Source: Flavobacterium paronense (GTDB lineage Bacteria > Bacteroidota > Bacteroidia > Flavobacteriales > Flavobacteriaceae). Taken from it: a stretch of 64,000 nucleotides of DNA. The notes beneath the pieces were generated by a model. The model had not been told where the DNA came from. It worked only from the letters and a program-made list of their open reading frames with translations, and did no database searches. Location: positions 248,001 through 312,000 of the forward strand of contig NZ_JAUFQN010000019.1 of NCBI RefSeq assembly GCF_030409795.1, given 5' to 3'. The first letter of the stretch is position 1; every line of letters begins with the position of its first letter. Positions 17,320 through 64,000 of this stretch are shown one piece after another. Position numbers and translations under genes: made by a program.

Positions 17320-17589
17320 TTATTTTCTAATATTCAATTCTTTGATAATCTCACGATATCTGTTTATCTCTTTTTTCTTCAAGTAATCAAGAAGACTTCT
17401 TCTTTTACCTACCAAAAGTACTAACGAACGCTCAGTGTTGTAATCGTGACGATTTTTTTTCAAGTGCTCCGTTAAGTGAGAGATTCTAAATGTGAACAAT
17501 GCGATTTGTCCTTCTGCAGATCCTGTGTTTTCTGCTTTTCCTCCGTGTTTAGCGAAGATTTCTGCTTTTGTTTCTTTACTTAGATACAT
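17320..17589 (-). CDS. rpsO: Ribosomal protein S15
   Basis: Small-subunit protein that binds 16S rRNA helices 20-22. Length is 89 residues. Conserved blocks are NTGSAEGQIALFTFRISHLTEHLK, KNRHDYNTERSLVLLVGKRRSLLDYLKK and the ending REIIKELNIRK. It precedes pnp, as in most bacteria. Confidence 0.97.
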   Translation of the reverse strand: MYLSKETKAEIFAKHGGKAENTGSAEGQIALFTFRISHLTEHLKKNRHDYNTERSLVLLVGKRRSLLDYLKKKEINRYREIIKELNIRK

Positions 17590-17695
17590 TCCAATATTTC
17601 TTTAAATGATTATTATGTATGAATCGAGGTTTTCTCAATTCGTGTGCAAAGATAATCTTCTTTTTCGATTAGGCAAATAAAAAGATGGGCTTAAC

Positions 17696-32750: not shown

Positions 32751-33067
32751 ATAAAATGTTTCGCTTTCGGGACAACAAAGATAATACTAAATTATAAAAT
32801 ATGACAAGATGGCAGTTTGGTTTAACAAAAGTTTTGGAGCGAATGGTTTGAGTATACATGGAGTCCTTGTTTCCGCTTTCCGTTGCAATATTTTTAGATA
32901 TCTTTTCGGGTAATCCAAAAATGATTTTCACTACAATCAGGGCATGAGAGTTGTCGTCTTTTGTGATAGTTGTAATTTGATAAAATGTGTCAATCGTCGT
33001 TAAAAAATAGCAATAAAACGGTTTTTTAAAAAAAACGTTTACTTTTGCCGACATAAACAATCGGGAT
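32751..33067. other. Intergenic region between miaB and topA
   Basis: 317 bases between divergent genes. No convincing gene: the one open frame (minus, 32734-33060) runs into miaB and has no family look. Near its centre are two related half-units (TTTCCGTTGCAAT at about 32879 and TTTCACTACAAT at about 32925), which resemble a decayed interspersed repeat. TACTTTTG at 33040-33047 is a good -7 element for topA. Confidence 0.5.
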
Positions 33068-58926: not shown

Positions 58927-59595
58927 TTATGCTATGCCCAGGTCTTTGGCAATAGCGATTAGGTGTACGGTATTGTTAGCGCTGAAATGGTCTTTGAGCT
59001 TACTGATATGCTTTTCGATGGTCGATTTGCTATTGGGCAGTATGCCAAGCTCTTTAAATCTTGCTTCTAAATCATCCTGAGTGATGCCAACAGCCAATTG
59101 CTGAATTATTTTAACATCATAGTCATCTATCTCACGGGTAGCGCTGGCTCTCATGAGATGCTCCAAGCTTGGAGAAAGATAAATAGCATCTTCTTCATAT
59201 ACTTTTTTAATCGCACTTTTCAGTTGATTGATACTGTCTCTGCCCTTGAGGACATAACCATTAATATGACTTTTTTCGAAAAGTGCTTTTATCTTGAATC
59301 TTTTGTTTTCAACGGAATAAACGATGATTTTAATATCGGGTTGGAGTATTCTTATTTGCTGTATGGCTTCTTCACCCGATTTGAGTTTTACTTCGCGATG
59401 ATCAGCTTCAAAAGACAAATCAGAAATAAAAAGGTCATAAGGCGTTTGGTCAGCAGTTGCCTTTCTTATTTTTAACAGGGCATCATCGCAGTATTTGACA
59501 TGGTCAATTTGGGTTACCCCCAATTCATGTAAGGTCTGTATAACTGCAATATTGATGCTGTCTATATCTTCGGCTAATAAAACTCTTTTAAACAT
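58927..59595 (-). CDS. Response regulator, receiver + LuxR-type HTH
   Basis: A 222-residue protein. Receiver: acidic pair E9/D10, phospho-acceptor D59 (LFISDLSF), Lys 117 (VLKGRDS). C-terminus with a LuxR/NarL-like HTH, somewhat divergent: VKIIQQLAVGITQDDLEARFKELGI...KSTIEKHISKLKDHF. It follows the sensor-kinase gene by three bases, so both are co-expressed. Candidate regulator of the palindromic promoters nearby. Confidence 0.92.
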   Translation of the reverse strand: MFKRVLLAEDIDSINIAVIQTLHELGVTQIDHVKYCDDALLKIRKATADQTPYDLFISDLSFEADHREVKLKSGEEAIQQIRILQPDIKIIVYSVENKRFKIKALFEKSHINGYVLKGRDSINQLKSAIKKVYEEDAIYLSPSLEHLMRASATREIDDYDVKIIQQLAVGITQDDLEARFKELGILPNSKSTIEKHISKLKDHFSANNTVHLIAIAKDLGIA

Positions 59596-59598
59596 ATC

Positions 59599-61248
59599 TT
59601 ACTTTGGTATTTGTAGGGTCACCCGGAAGCCTTTACTAACTTCTTTGTCAAAAGTAAAGGTTCCTTTTAGTGCCTCAATACGGTTTTCCGCATTTTGAAG
59701 TCCTTTTTTTGAAAACTTAGCCGTGTCAATTCCCTTGCCGTTATCAGCGTACTTTATCTCCAGAAGTTTTGCCCTGTCTTCAAAATTCAGCATTACTAAA
59801 TTGGCTTCACTATATTTCTTCATATTCACCAATAGTTCCTGCAGGACCCTGTAAATAGCAATTTTAGTTTCCGTATTGATTTTGCTCCAATCGATAGCGG
59901 ATATGTTTTTTAAGATAATAGTAACGTCATTGCTGTTGAAACTGTTTATTAAATCCAACAGAAAGTTGCTGTAGCGTTCATCGGTATAGATTTCGGCGTT
60001 GGTTTGTGAAATATCCCGGGCTTTACTATAAATATTCTCCAGGTTATCCAGTAAGGCTTCCCTGTTTTCTGTTTTTTGGAGGTTTTGAGTTTCAGCAAAA
60101 GCCATAGTCTGATACACATCATTGGCTAGTTCATCGTGTATTTTTTTGGCTATCCTGTTTTCGGTTTCATACACGGATGCTACCAGTTTCTTTCTGTTTC
60201 TCTTTCTGATAAAATAAAGCAGGAGAAAGGAAGAGAGTAAAATTAGTACCGCTAACAGCACAGCAAGCTGCATATTCACCTTGTATTTTTGTTCGTTTTC
60301 AATCGCTTTTTTGGAATCGTATTTGATTTTGGCAAACTGATTTTTGGCCGAATTTCGACTTAGTGTCAAACTATCATTTAGGCTAATAAAGGCAGCTGTG
60401 TATTGTTTCGCAGCTATTGGCTCACTATTTTCAATTAACAATCGCAACGCTTCCAGTTGGTCATCAGGACTGTTTACTTTCTTAGAAGCCAGAAGGGCAG
60501 TAACCGCATACTGTTTAGCCTTGGGCTTATCAACACCCATGAAAAATGCGGACAGGTGGATATTAGACGGAATACTACCAATTACATCTTGTAAACTGTC
60601 TCTTATTTGCAAAGATTTGTAAAGATTAGAATAGGCAGCGGCGTTATTCAATTTAAACTGAGAATACCCTATATTATCCAGGACTCTGGCAATTTGGGGT
60701 GGATTAGCTTTCAGGGGTCGATTTTTTAAAAGCGGACTGAGTAGTTGAATGGCTTTATCATGGTTGCCTTTTTCCTGATAAATTAATCCAATATTGCTTT
60801 GCGCTATTGCTTTTGACAAGGGGTCATTAAAACTGGCATAGGCCATTTTATAATAACGCAGGGCATCATCAAATTTTTTCTGTTTGTCATAGGCTATGGC
60901 CAACATATTATATAAATAGGGTCTGTAAAGAGTCCCTTCATAAGTGCTGAGTGCTTCTGTTATTGTTTCCTCACTTCCATAAAAATCACCAATATGTTGC
61001 TGGACAGTCGCTGTTTGAAGTAATACATAAGCACCATTTTCCCCTTTTTTATCGGCACAGTTTTCATAGGCAAGTTGGTAATAAAAATAGGCACTATCCA
61101 ACTGTGTTTTTTCATAAAAAGAGGCATCCCCTTTGTCTCTCAGTACTACATATTTCCTTTCTTTTTCGTTTATAAGATTAGTACAGGAACTGGTAAAGAA
61201 TAGTAAGCTAAACAATAAAATCAGGGAATGTACAATGTTGCGTATCAT
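59599..61248 (-). CDS. TPR sensor histidine kinase (HisKA_3-type)
   Basis: A 549-residue protein. N-terminus is a signal with a lipobox-like TSSC (Cys 22), then TPR repeats at about 75-225 (DDALRYYKMAYASF, HDKAIQLLSPLL), one membrane helix at 325-347, H-box with His 371 (AKKIHDELANDVYQTM), HATPase with VLQELLVNMKKYSEA and YADNGKGID. The TPR sensor part faces the periplasm. The cognate regulator is the next gene. Confidence 0.92.
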   Translation of the reverse strand: MIRNIVHSLILLFSLLFFTSSCTNLINEKERKYVVLRDKGDASFYEKTQLDSAYFYYQLAYENCADKKGENGAYVLLQTATVQQHIGDFYGSEETITEALSTYEGTLYRPYLYNMLAIAYDKQKKFDDALRYYKMAYASFNDPLSKAIAQSNIGLIYQEKGNHDKAIQLLSPLLKNRPLKANPPQIARVLDNIGYSQFKLNNAAAYSNLYKSLQIRDSLQDVIGSIPSNIHLSAFFMGVDKPKAKQYAVTALLASKKVNSPDDQLEALRLLIENSEPIAAKQYTAAFISLNDSLTLSRNSAKNQFAKIKYDSKKAIENEQKYKVNMQLAVLLAVLILLSSFLLLYFIRKRNRKKLVASVYETENRIAKKIHDELANDVYQTMAFAETQNLQKTENREALLDNLENIYSKARDISQTNAEIYTDERYSNFLLDLINSFNSNDVTIILKNISAIDWSKINTETKIAIYRVLQELLVNMKKYSEANLVMLNFEDRAKLLEIKYADNGKGIDTAKFSKKGLQNAENRIEALKGTFTFDKEVSKGFRVTLQIPK

Positions 61249-61593: not shown

Positions 61594-61626
61594 AAACCTG
61601 ACAGGTTTTAGAAACCTGTCAGGTTT
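61594..61626. repeat. Inverted pair of AAACCTGACAGGTTT
   Basis: AAACCTGACAGGTTT (61594-61608), three bases, then AAACCTGTCAGGTTT (61612-61626). Each arm is itself palindromic, so cruciform or hairpin forms are possible. Confidence 0.8.
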
Positions 61627-61720
61627 AAAAAAACGGCCCTCTAAAACAGCCTCGTCAAAAAAACCAATAAACATCAACATCAAATCTTTCTAAAAGTAAC
61701 TTCTAATCATAAATAACGGT

Positions 61721-61909
61721 TTATTTTAATAAAGGGATAATAGCAGGGGGGTCGAAGCCGAAGTAGTCGCAGAAGTCGTCTACTGTAATGGGCTGGTGTT
61801 TGGGTTTAGCGCTGTTCGCTCTGATTTTTTTGATGATTTCGCGGGCTTGCCGCTCGCTTTTGCCTGTGATTTGTTGGATGTCTTTGGCGTAAATGCAAAT
61901 TCTGTTCAT
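61721..61909 (-). CDS. Small HTH-like protein
   Basis: A 62-residue protein: IYAKDIQQITGKSERQAREIIKKIRANSAKPKHQPITVDDFCDYFGFDPPAIIPLLK. The first part looks like an HTH of the type seen in excisionase-like or small phage/island regulators (KDI..ITGKSERQAREII), and the rest predicts a second short helix. It diverges from the HU-like gene, with a 424-base region between. Function not assigned. Confidence 0.65.
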   Translation of the reverse strand: MNRICIYAKDIQQITGKSERQAREIIKKIRANSAKPKHQPITVDDFCDYFGFDPPAIIPLLK

Positions 61910-62019: not shown

Positions 62020-62145
62020 TTACACCGCACTTCAAGGAAACGTTAAAGATTGTGTAAACAGTTGGCACTTTTGCAACTTTTATGCCTAACGTGGTATTTT
62101 CCTTAGGATTATCGTTTTTTTAAGCCAATCTTAATTTAAGTAACC

Positions 62146-62255
62146 AAAACTGACGTTTTTGTGCAAAAAGTGACGAAAAGTGACGAAAAGTGACGTTTTT
62201 ATACCAAAACCTGCAAAAAGTGACGATTTCCTGCAAAAACCTGCAAAAAGTAACA
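62146..62255. repeat. 10-bp-phased array of AAAAGTGACG and CCTGCAAAAA
   Basis: AAAAGTGACG starts at 62166, 62176, 62186 and 62216, with close variants at 62146 (AAAACTGACG) and 62246 (AAAAGTAACA). CCTGCAAAAA starts at 62210, 62230 and 62240. Each family keeps one 10-bp register, so the A-tracts face one side of the helix. This is the layout of bent DNA or of a cooperative protein-binding array. Confidence 0.8.
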
Positions 62256-62333
62256 TTCTGAACCTCAAGGGTGTACAACCGATTATTTTCCTCTTTTACT
62301 TTGTGGCACTATTAATTTTTAAATATATTAATC

Positions 62334-63032
62334 ATGGCTATCAAGTATTATTTACAGCCCAATCCGATTACACCGGATCCCAATGACCAATCGGCACGTG
62401 TTATTAGTAACAAAGTGCACGACACCGACAGCATTACTAAGGAAATGCTGAAACGCGGTAGCACAATTACCGAAGCTGACATCCGTGCAGTGCTTAACGT
62501 ATTCTTTATGGTCGTTACCGATGAAGTTGCCGATGGCAACAGTGTGAACCTGCCCCTGGTGAATATCCGCGCCGGGGTAACAGGAGTTTTCACTAGTATT
62601 ACCGACAGTTTTGATGCGTCACGACACATCAAAAAAGCAAACCTGTCCGCAGGGACCGAACTCATCCGCAAGATGAACGAGGCACGGGTAGAAAAAATCA
62701 CTGTGCCAACCGCTGCACCGGCATTGATTGCCTTCACCGATGTTACTTCGCAAACCACCAACAGCATCCTAACACCTGGTGGTATCGGACAAATAGTGGG
62801 TGAGGAATTGAAATTCAATCCTGCTAATGTTACCGAAGGGATTTTCTTTATTGCGTCAGACGGGACGGTTACTCCCGCAACGATTATTGCGAGTCGTACT
62901 GAAGGTAAAATTGTTTTCAGTGTACCTGCGTTGCCTGCCGGAAACTATACACTCGAAGTGCGTAAAGGCTATGGTTCGACCAACATTGTTGTCCGCTCCG
63001 GTGCCTTGCAGGACACGCTTATTGTGAATTAG
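62334..63032 (+). CDS. HU-like DNA-binding domain protein with Ig-like C-terminus
   Basis: A 232-residue protein. Residues 1-125 fit the HU/IHF-like domain of Bacteroidota (KYYLQPNPITPDPNDQSARV at the start; ITEADIRAVLNVFFMVVTDEVADGNSVNL in the middle). Residues about 145-232 look like a DUF4469/IPT-type Ig domain (VGEELKFNPANVTEGIFFIASDGT...GNYTLEVRKGYGS). GC content is visibly higher than that of the neighbours and codons like CTG, GCC and CGC are frequent, which fits high expression or transfer. A terminator lies 30 bases past the stop. Confidence 0.87.
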   Translation: MAIKYYLQPNPITPDPNDQSARVISNKVHDTDSITKEMLKRGSTITEADIRAVLNVFFMVVTDEVADGNSVNLPLVNIRAGVTGVFTSITDSFDASRHIKKANLSAGTELIRKMNEARVEKITVPTAAPALIAFTDVTSQTTNSILTPGGIGQIVGEELKFNPANVTEGIFFIASDGTVTPATIIASRTEGKIVFSVPALPAGNYTLEVRKGYGSTNIVVRSGALQDTLIVN

Positions 63033-63095: not shown

Positions 63096-63111
63096 TTCCA
63101 ATACGGTCGAC

Positions 63112-63295
63112 AAAATGTTCAAGCACTTGGAAAACAAATTGTCGAAGCACTTGGAAAACAAAATGTTCAAGTACTTAGAAAACAAATTGTCGAAGCACTT
63201 AGAAAACAAAATGTTCAAGCCACGTCGAGAAGTTGTCGAGGCTGCGTCGAGAAGTTGTCCAAGCCACGTCGAGAAGTTGTCGAAGCTGCATGGAG
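63112..63295. repeat. Tandem repeat, four 24-bp and four 22-bp units
   Basis: Units alternate between TGTTCAAG and TGTCGAAG versions, giving a 48-bp higher-order period. The first four are 24 bp (63112-63207, with CACTTGGAAAAC or CACTTAGAAAAC ends). The next four are 22 bp (63208-63295, mostly with CACGTCGAG or TGCGTCGAG ends). A frame reads through (63043-63330) as 8-residue units HLENKLSK and HLENKMFK, but it starts inside the HU terminator, so coding is doubtful. Confidence 0.85.
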
Positions 63296-63378
63296 AAAAT
63301 GTTGAGGTTTTGTTATCGGTTGACGGTTGACGGTTCTCTGTTCTCTGTAGTCTGTTTTCGGTTCTAGGTTGTAGGGTT

Positions 63379-64000
63379 CGTCACTTCGAGTGATTTTTAA
63401 AAGTGAGAACGCAGTTCTTAATTTTAAAAATAATATCGAGAAGCATTGTGCGCACAACGGTTCTCGATACATTTTTGGTAAGGACAATTTTTTTCTTTTT
63501 CAAAATGAAGAACCAAAAACACTCGAACTGACGTATACGGAAATCTCGTTCTTTATACGGACCGTCACTTCGAGTGATTTTTAAAGTTGAAAACGTTAGT
63601 TTTTTACTTTGAAAATAATATCGAGAAACTTAGTGCGCACAACGGTTCTCGATACATTTTTGGTAAGGACAATTTTTTTCTTTTTCAAAATGAAGAACCA
63701 AAAACACTCGAACTGACGACTGTATAGATGATGACGTATAAATAACCTCTCTCTAACGCGAACCGTCACTTCGAGTGATTTTTAAAGTGGAAAACGTTAG
63801 TTTTTTACTTTGAAAATAATATCGAGAAGCTTAGTGCGCACAACTGTTCTCGATAAATTTTTGGTAAGGACGATTTTTTTTTTCAAAATGAAGAACCAAA
63901 AACACTCGAACTGACGTATACGGGAATCTCGTTATTTATACAGACCGTCACTTCGAGTGATTTTTAAAGTGGAAAACGTTAGTTTTTTACTTTGAAAATA
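63379..64000. repeat. REP/MITE-like array of about 155-bp units
   Basis: Three full units at 63379-63533, 63563-63718 and 63764-63916, and a fourth from 63946 cut by the window end. Each begins CGTCACTTCGAGTG and ends CACTCGAACTGACG, inverted copies of each other. The centre has ATCGAGAA...TTCTCGAT around TGTGCGCACAA. Spacers 1 and 3 (29 bp) are nearly identical; spacer 2 is unrelated. No gene is seen in the array. Confidence 0.9.

Follow-up and report, generated by a model that had tools for sequence, protein, structure and literature searches.

An array of twelve 10-bp units lies upstream of a gene for an HU-superfamily protein in Flavobacterium paronense, and arrays built from the same words stand before two further HU-HIG genes of that genome. 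The array was found in a 64,000-nucleotide stretch of contig NZ_JAUFQN010000019.1 (positions 248,001 to 312,000), hereafter the window. We read it, with a confidence that falls just short of an even chance, as a putative regulatory docking lattice on pre-bent DNA that would control HU-like genes, with HU-HIG proteins as the likeliest binders; we infer the binding, the binder and the sign of the regulation from sequence. The features on which the argument turns are the following.

62140-62259, plus strand: decamer array, 12 units in one 10-bp register, detected by sequence reading, Tandem Repeats Finder and motif matching.
62206-62244, plus strand: 39-bp core of the array, with no difference from Flavobacterium sp. 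WG47 in the alignment; the surrounding spacer is diverged and gapped.
62296-62303, plus strand: probable -7 element TTACTTTG, 36 bp beyond the end of the array, agreeing at 7 of 8 positions with the Bacteroidetes -7 promoter consensus, TAnnTTTG.
62334-63032, plus strand: HU-superfamily gene (the window gene), 232 aa, with HU-DNA_bdg (PF14848) and an Ig-like C-terminal domain, DUF4469 (PF14734).
61721-61909, minus strand: divergent 62-aa ORF that borders the same spacer, small and helix-turn-helix-like by eye.

The twelve units have an NNNRCNAAAA-like form. Those of the first half are, in order, GTAACCAAAA, CTGACGTTTT, TGTGCAAAAA, GTGACGAAAA, GTGACGAAAA and GTGACGTTTT, and those of the second half TATACCAAAA, CCTGCAAAAA, GTGACGATTT, CCTGCAAAAA, CCTGCAAAAA and GTAACATTCT. 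Every hexamer starts at a position divisible by 10, which rules out the two separate registers described in the earlier note. The motif copies that it listed upstream of the HU-like gene were all recovered: AAAAGTGACG is exact at 62166, 62176, 62186 and 62216, with a one-mismatch copy at 62146 and, by reading, a sixth copy with two mismatches (AAAAGTAACA at 62246), and CCTGCAAAAA is exact at 62210, 62230 and 62240. Its contention that chance would not produce such phasing also stands. With at most one mismatch, AAAAGTGACG occurs 17 times in the window, against a mean of 5.8 and a largest value of 11 in 100 dinucleotide shuffles. AAAA or TTTT ends nine of ten consecutive decamers in the array, against a maximum of five of ten in 187 control upstream regions (ORFs of at least 120 aa from the same fetched stretches, with a spacer of at least 120 bp, called by a simple ORF caller); six of ten was not reached elsewhere in the window once stretches overlapping the array were set aside. 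CCTGCAAAAA is not over-represented across the window (15 matches, a level reached by 29 of 100 shuffles), and what is unusual about it is its clustering, not its window-wide frequency.

The expectation that the product is HU-like was borne out by three profiles: the window gene matches PF14848 (E = 7e-26, 91.1 bits, cut-off 30), PF14734 (E = 2e-13, 50.5 bits, cut-off 22.6) and, marginally, the HU-HIG profile PF18291 (E = 3e-7, 30.8 bits, cut-off 26.2). One solved relative of the protein is 4fmr (profile E = 3.6e-9), and a structure prediction made with seven homologues had a mean pLDDT of 46, too poor for use. The HU-DNA_bdg class is rare, being found in 5 of 249 genomes of the family; the window gene had no match among 50,697 phage records and two distant relatives among 72,556 plasmid records. 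It is neighboured by a kinase/response-regulator pair at 58927-61248, and by reading AAACCTGNCAGGTTT stands twice at 61594-61627, in the spacer that precedes the kinase gene. The 62-aa ORF has no Pfam or NCBIfam match; the DNA in and just upstream of its start has matches in 26 of 397 other genus genomes, at 69-86% identity. Downstream of the window gene are 24-bp and 22-bp tandem repeats (63110-63297) and a 185-201-bp tandem repeat of about 4.4 copies (63380-64000) that extends beyond the window end (to L207:7227). Two known Rfam families also fall in the window, a Flavo-1 RNA (32865-32948, minus strand) and a flavobacterial S15 leader (17587-17654, minus strand).

The genome is 3.6 Mb in size with a contamination estimate of 9.7%, and the loci discussed here all lie on its 3.2-Mb contig. 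Apart from the window gene it carries three strong HU-HIG genes, two of which have arrays with the same words as that of the window: a 16-unit array upstream of L205 (C19:1116239; product 105.6 bits to PF18291), which contains a 50-bp higher-order duplication, and a 12-unit array upstream of L204 (C19:1506143; 107.5 bits). The third, L206 (C19:1719729), has four AAAGATGTACATCTTT-like palindromes at 22 bp (G000:C19:1719594-1719675) and no decamer array. Common to the three decamer arrays are CCTGCA, GTGACR and TATACC/CATACM, and one of the three genes belongs to a different HU family, the words being shared nonetheless. The strict pattern CNAAAAN4CNAAAAN4CNAAAA has 12 exact matches in the genome, all at these three HU-like gene promoters, and its reversed control has one; when one mismatch is allowed, 23 of 31 matches are at the three promoters and 8 are scattered, and the control gives 26. 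The array common to the three genes is probably a shared control element.

The earlier note offered autoregulation through a nucleoprotein array and an intrinsic A-tract bend as alternatives. The bend is upheld by strong predicted curvature; the choice between the two is not, and the retention of an RC step in the units favours both together. In a dinucleotide wedge model, whose sign was set so that A4T4CG is curved and T4A4CG straight, predicted curvature was 1.46 for the window, 1.80 for L204, 1.65 for L205 and 1.29 for L141, and the controls had a median of 1.10, a 95% value of 1.21 and a maximum of 1.43. The window, L204 and L205 upstream regions thus exceed all 187 controls, and the value for the array of genome G133 was reached by two. 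The phase coherence of A/T-tracts was reached by none of the 187 controls for any of the three arrays of the genome and by one for that of G133. With predicted curvature above background, the array would belong with intrinsically curved, phased A-tract DNA. At unit positions 4-5, 50 of the 51 units and 16 of the 17 distinct hexamers in five arrays have RC (a purine at position 4 without exception, and C at position 5 in all units but one), against 9.1% of 5,834 background N6+A4/T4 decamers, a contrast for which a binomial value overstates the significance because related hexamers are not independent. Since RC is constant while positions 1, 2, 3 and 6 vary, the pattern is evidence that some factor may read this step once per turn. 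Likewise, the hexamer words point to sequence-specific recognition, as the RC step is not needed for bending and the same words occur at three unlinked HU-like promoters.

Comparison of the upstream regions of homologues, which had been proposed as a check, gave a divided answer: the array core is kept in one relative, and most homologues have no array. In Flavobacterium sp. WG47, the nearest syntenic relative found, the orthologue (L004) is 88% identical and is preceded by five array units in the same position, fewer than in the window; the CTCTTTTACTTTG stretch at the probable -7 element is also common to both. Six of the seven full-length homologues of the window protein (L005-L010) have no decamer array in the 450 bp read by eye, nor has a broken homologue in G001; L007 carries another word twice, about 21 bp apart. 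Ten more distant HU-DNA_bdg upstream regions outside the genome yielded only two 21-bp repeats. In G133, a shorter array of six units with GTGACG words precedes an HU-HIG gene. The strict pattern is not matched by WG47 or G133. On the protein tree the four decamer genes do not form a clade (the 4 rows take 4 changes, no improvement on shuffles). Because they are scattered on the tree, and because L005-L010, the broken G001 homologue and the distant HU-DNA_bdg genes have no decamer array, the decamer array type follows genome lineage (G000, the F. paronense genome, with WG47 and G133) and not protein clade.

The decamer layout is not in itself peculiar to HU-like genes, since related runs occur where no HU gene was recognised nearby. 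A BLAST search with the 646-bp spacer against 398 genus genomes found array-overlapping matches, beyond the genome itself and G344, in G315 and G293. The G293 match sits inside an ORF. In G315 (L046 at about 2983; G315:C54:1475982) a decamer-like run of related words, GTGTCGAAAA TTGCTAAAAA GTGTCGTTTT TATACTTTTT, lies between ORFs, and no HU gene is among the neighbouring ORFs listed. Matches to the start of the gene region in G363, G233, G073, G119, G328 and G310 were set aside, as by reading they are not HU-HIG promoters. Among the 398 genus genomes, three consecutive RCRAAAAN3 units were found in six besides F. paronense, fewer than for the reversed control among the matches listed; two of these (L059 and L060) were read in gene context and showed no HU gene among their ORFs, and the others are L056, L058, L061 and L062. 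Four-unit RCRAAAA decamer arrays are also present in 26 viral stretches (L296-L321, viral contigs), and no HU gene was recognised among the nearest ORFs of the ten inspected. Two of the viral arrays (L316 and L318) have mixed words, and at L308 and L317 a similar small ORF diverges from the array.

The docking lattice that we favour would work as follows. Each 10-bp unit would consist of a hexamer, variable but for the RC step, and an A- or T-tract after it. The tracts would pre-bend the DNA, and with every helical turn an RC step would come to lie on approximately the same face. A DNA-binding protein that the decamer-bearing HU-like promoters of the lineage have in common would dock along that face and determine the activity of the promoter some 40 bp downstream. 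The binder would most likely be one or more HU-HIG proteins, which would act both on the promoters of their own genes and on one another's. A same-face 10-bp lattice would suit the HU fold, since the HU dimer has two-fold symmetry and introduces kinks about 9 bp apart into DNA. Because the array is shared with two other HU-HIG genes, and is lacking in six of seven homologues and the broken one, cross-regulation or a shared third factor would fit at least as well as autoregulation by the window protein. In WG47, a short HU-HIG protein is unlikely to be the binder, since its three PF18291 matches (45.5 bits, 33.7 bits for the orthologue, and 29.8 bits) all fall below the 94-107 bits of the short HU-HIG genes of F. 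paronense. Another shared factor may be at work because decamer type and protein clade do not go together and the WG47 core is present without a strong short HU-HIG gene. The shared words could also stem from copying of arrays between loci.

Alternatively, the phased A-tracts might act by bending alone, as an UP element or a general landing site for HU or RNA polymerase, with the hexamers irrelevant. The curvature and phase coherence of the three arrays of the genome (above all 187 controls in both) and of the G133 array (above 185 and 186) are what this explanation has in its favour. Bending would leave the hexamers free, however, whereas all but one of the 51 units keep RC and unlinked loci reuse the same few hexamers; moreover, the distance from array to probable -7 element exceeds that of a classical UP element, and we consider a pure bend improbable. 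A lineage-specific regulator outside the HU-HIG proteins, such as a response regulator reading 10-bp direct repeats or canonical HU, might instead co-control an HU-like regulon. That the array type tracks genomes, is common to two HU families and persists as a core in WG47 without a strong short HU-HIG gene agrees with such a regulator; but in F. paronense the strict pattern is found at HU-like promoters only and no candidate regulator was found, so that this too seems to us unlikely.

A neutral, slippage-derived minisatellite, whose link to HU-like genes would be incidental in a genus with intergenic regions rich in word-like short repeats, would account for the 50-bp duplication within the L205 array, the large tandem repeats just downstream in the window, the G315 run, the viral arrays, and the repeats CCAGCAAAAA in G289 and TCAGCGAAAA in G338, which have no HU gene among the adjoining ORFs. 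We judge it quite improbable: the three strict arrays of the genome are all at HU-like promoters, the core is identical between diverged relatives, and RC is constant though other positions vary. Least credible, to the point of being a long shot, is a partition-like centromere, a parC-like iteron array that also autoregulates its own promoter. Type II parC is laid out in this way, with phased repeats of 10-11 bp before a gene for a DNA-binding protein, and the 22-bp type of HU-HIG array described below also exists stand-alone; against this, profiles found no ParM/ParA-type partner among the window gene and its four upstream neighbours, the locus is on a 3.2-Mb contig, and stand-alone decamer arrays are not evident in the genome.

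Promoter arrays are common in the HU-HIG family, among them the decamer array as a type specific to its lineage. Of 239 genus genomes sampled, 38, counting F. paronense, carry HU-HIG genes (PF18291, E up to 1e-14). Of 81 HU-HIG places, two cut at a contig start (C207 and C218 of G069) were dropped and the window locus was added, giving 80; omission of L161, which has too little upstream sequence, left 79 upstream regions, related orthologues among them. Near-repeats at exactly 22, 44 or 66 bp were present in 28 of these 79 regions of 250 bp, the window gene being included in the set; they were found at 22 bp in 24, at 44 bp in 17 and at 66 bp in 7, against 1, 0 and 0 of the 187 controls. No such near-repeats appeared in a single shuffle of each region. 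Any near-repeat at all was found in 14 of the 187 controls, and the distances varied: two controls had one at 21 bp, one at 20 bp and one at 22 bp. Self-repeats at 10 bp occur in 4 of the 79 HU-HIG or HU-like regions, three of them in the F. paronense genome, versus none of the controls.

The 22-bp arrays belong to several HU-HIG subfamilies of the genus (L206 and loci L154-L202 were scored) and consist of often palindromic, subfamily-specific words. The window locus (L207) has a period-22 score of -13, compared with 20-83 for the labelled arrays, and so falls outside this type. The 22-bp label clusters on the protein tree (4 changes against a shuffled mean of 26.7, for 38 labelled rows), where it was set by hand at a score of about 20; no label was given to L179 (score 23), which sits on a very long branch among the RKNPQD-like genes, and at least four loci labelled as having no array (L189, L194, L196 and L198) show by eye similar words at uneven spacing. 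Genes with the label fall into the KMVPKKN-like and GKTNP/ANSNP/TKKNIP-like subfamilies and, L179 aside, there is none in the RKNPQD-like subfamily, to which L204, L205 and the G133 gene belong. Upstream of the RKNPQD-like loci L130-L153 there is no 22-bp array; many of them share a block around GCCAATTGTGAATAAGTTTGGC, and many by reading have a dyad (GTCAGTTAGRTACT ... AGTATACTAAGAC) between promoter and start codon. Paralogues within one genome carry differing words, of the GATGTACGGG, GATGTACGACTT and TCACCATGGTGA types in G014 and the TCGACGGCCGTCGA, ATGGCCAT and CTATATATC types in G139, and for this reason one common regulator reading all the 22-bp words would be unlikely.

Beyond the genus, matches came from 17 of 247 genomes in a phylum-level sample; F. 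paronense apart, they made up 38 places, of which 27 were read. Some repeat was present in 9 of the 27 upstream regions versus 2 of 27 after shuffling; eight of the nine were spaced 20-23 or 44 bp, but these come from three genomes (G857, G865 and G679), two of them are near-copies, and L257 is of low complexity. Some Bacteroidota have an expanded HU-HIG clade, with seven places in G139 and thirteen in G857. Arrays of the 22-bp GATGTACATC type also stand alone, away from the HU-HIG places surveyed in the genus, two in the F. paronense genome (C19:165711 and C19:2617126), three in G133, at least nine in G014 and one in G139 (loci L225 at about 3212, L226 at about 3127 and L227-L239, the two F. 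paronense positions included). They look intergenic, some lying 38-268 bp from another ORF, and in F. paronense and G133 one is 212 and 221 bp, respectively, upstream of a gene that by sequence reading is Mrp/ApbC-like. The nine in G014 have partly shared flanks and are perhaps a dispersed element. The 22-bp arrays may hold wider interest than the decamer array of the window.

The array types resemble each other and several known systems in part. Like the window array, the Flavobacterium 22-bp arrays are phased, lie upstream of HU-HIG genes with a spacing near whole helical turns, and are nearly absent from neighbouring genes. They differ in that their words are often palindromic (AAAGATGTACATCTTT, TTACCGCGGTAA, TGACTGCAGTCA), their curvature is near that of controls (median 1.13 versus 1.10) and their type follows protein subfamily, whereas the window array is 10-bp, non-palindromic and curved and follows genome lineage. 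In ParR/parC and the omega repressor, repeats of 10-11 or 7 bp upstream of the protein's own operon are covered as a helix-phased lattice. These systems share with the window array short phased repeats upstream of a gene for a DNA-binding protein, but they use other protein folds, and the window locus has no partition partner among its four upstream neighbours. Curved DNA, synthetic and natural, contains phased A-tracts such as A5N5 repeats; the window array has A4-A5 tracts every 10 bp in the same way, and beyond this a constant RC step and restricted hexamers. By Pfam profile the window gene is a member of the HU-HIG/HU-DNA_bdg clades of the HU/IHF superfamily. The 2017 study of HU clades by Burroughs et al. 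in Cell Cycle, a protein study, is said to propose roles in partition and against mobile elements, and is not known to describe promoter arrays. A limited literature search of titles and abstract openings found no publication on arrays before HU-like genes of Bacteroidota.

Recurrent promoter arrays with paralogue-specific words offer candidate recognition sequences for the little-studied HU-HIG proteins. A broader reading, which we think possible but hold with considerable doubt, is that the HU-HIG proteins are HU relatives that recognise specific sequences, with a word and a phased autoregulatory array of that word for each paralogue, and that the stand-alone 22-bp arrays are further docking sites. 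The arrays would then take the form of 22-bp palindromes in several subfamilies and of a bent decamer lattice in the window lineage. If this were true, a single genome would operate a number of orthogonal nucleoid address systems that diversify rapidly; and if HU-HIG proteins do bind these arrays, the HU fold would have given rise to several private specificities for DNA inside a single genome.
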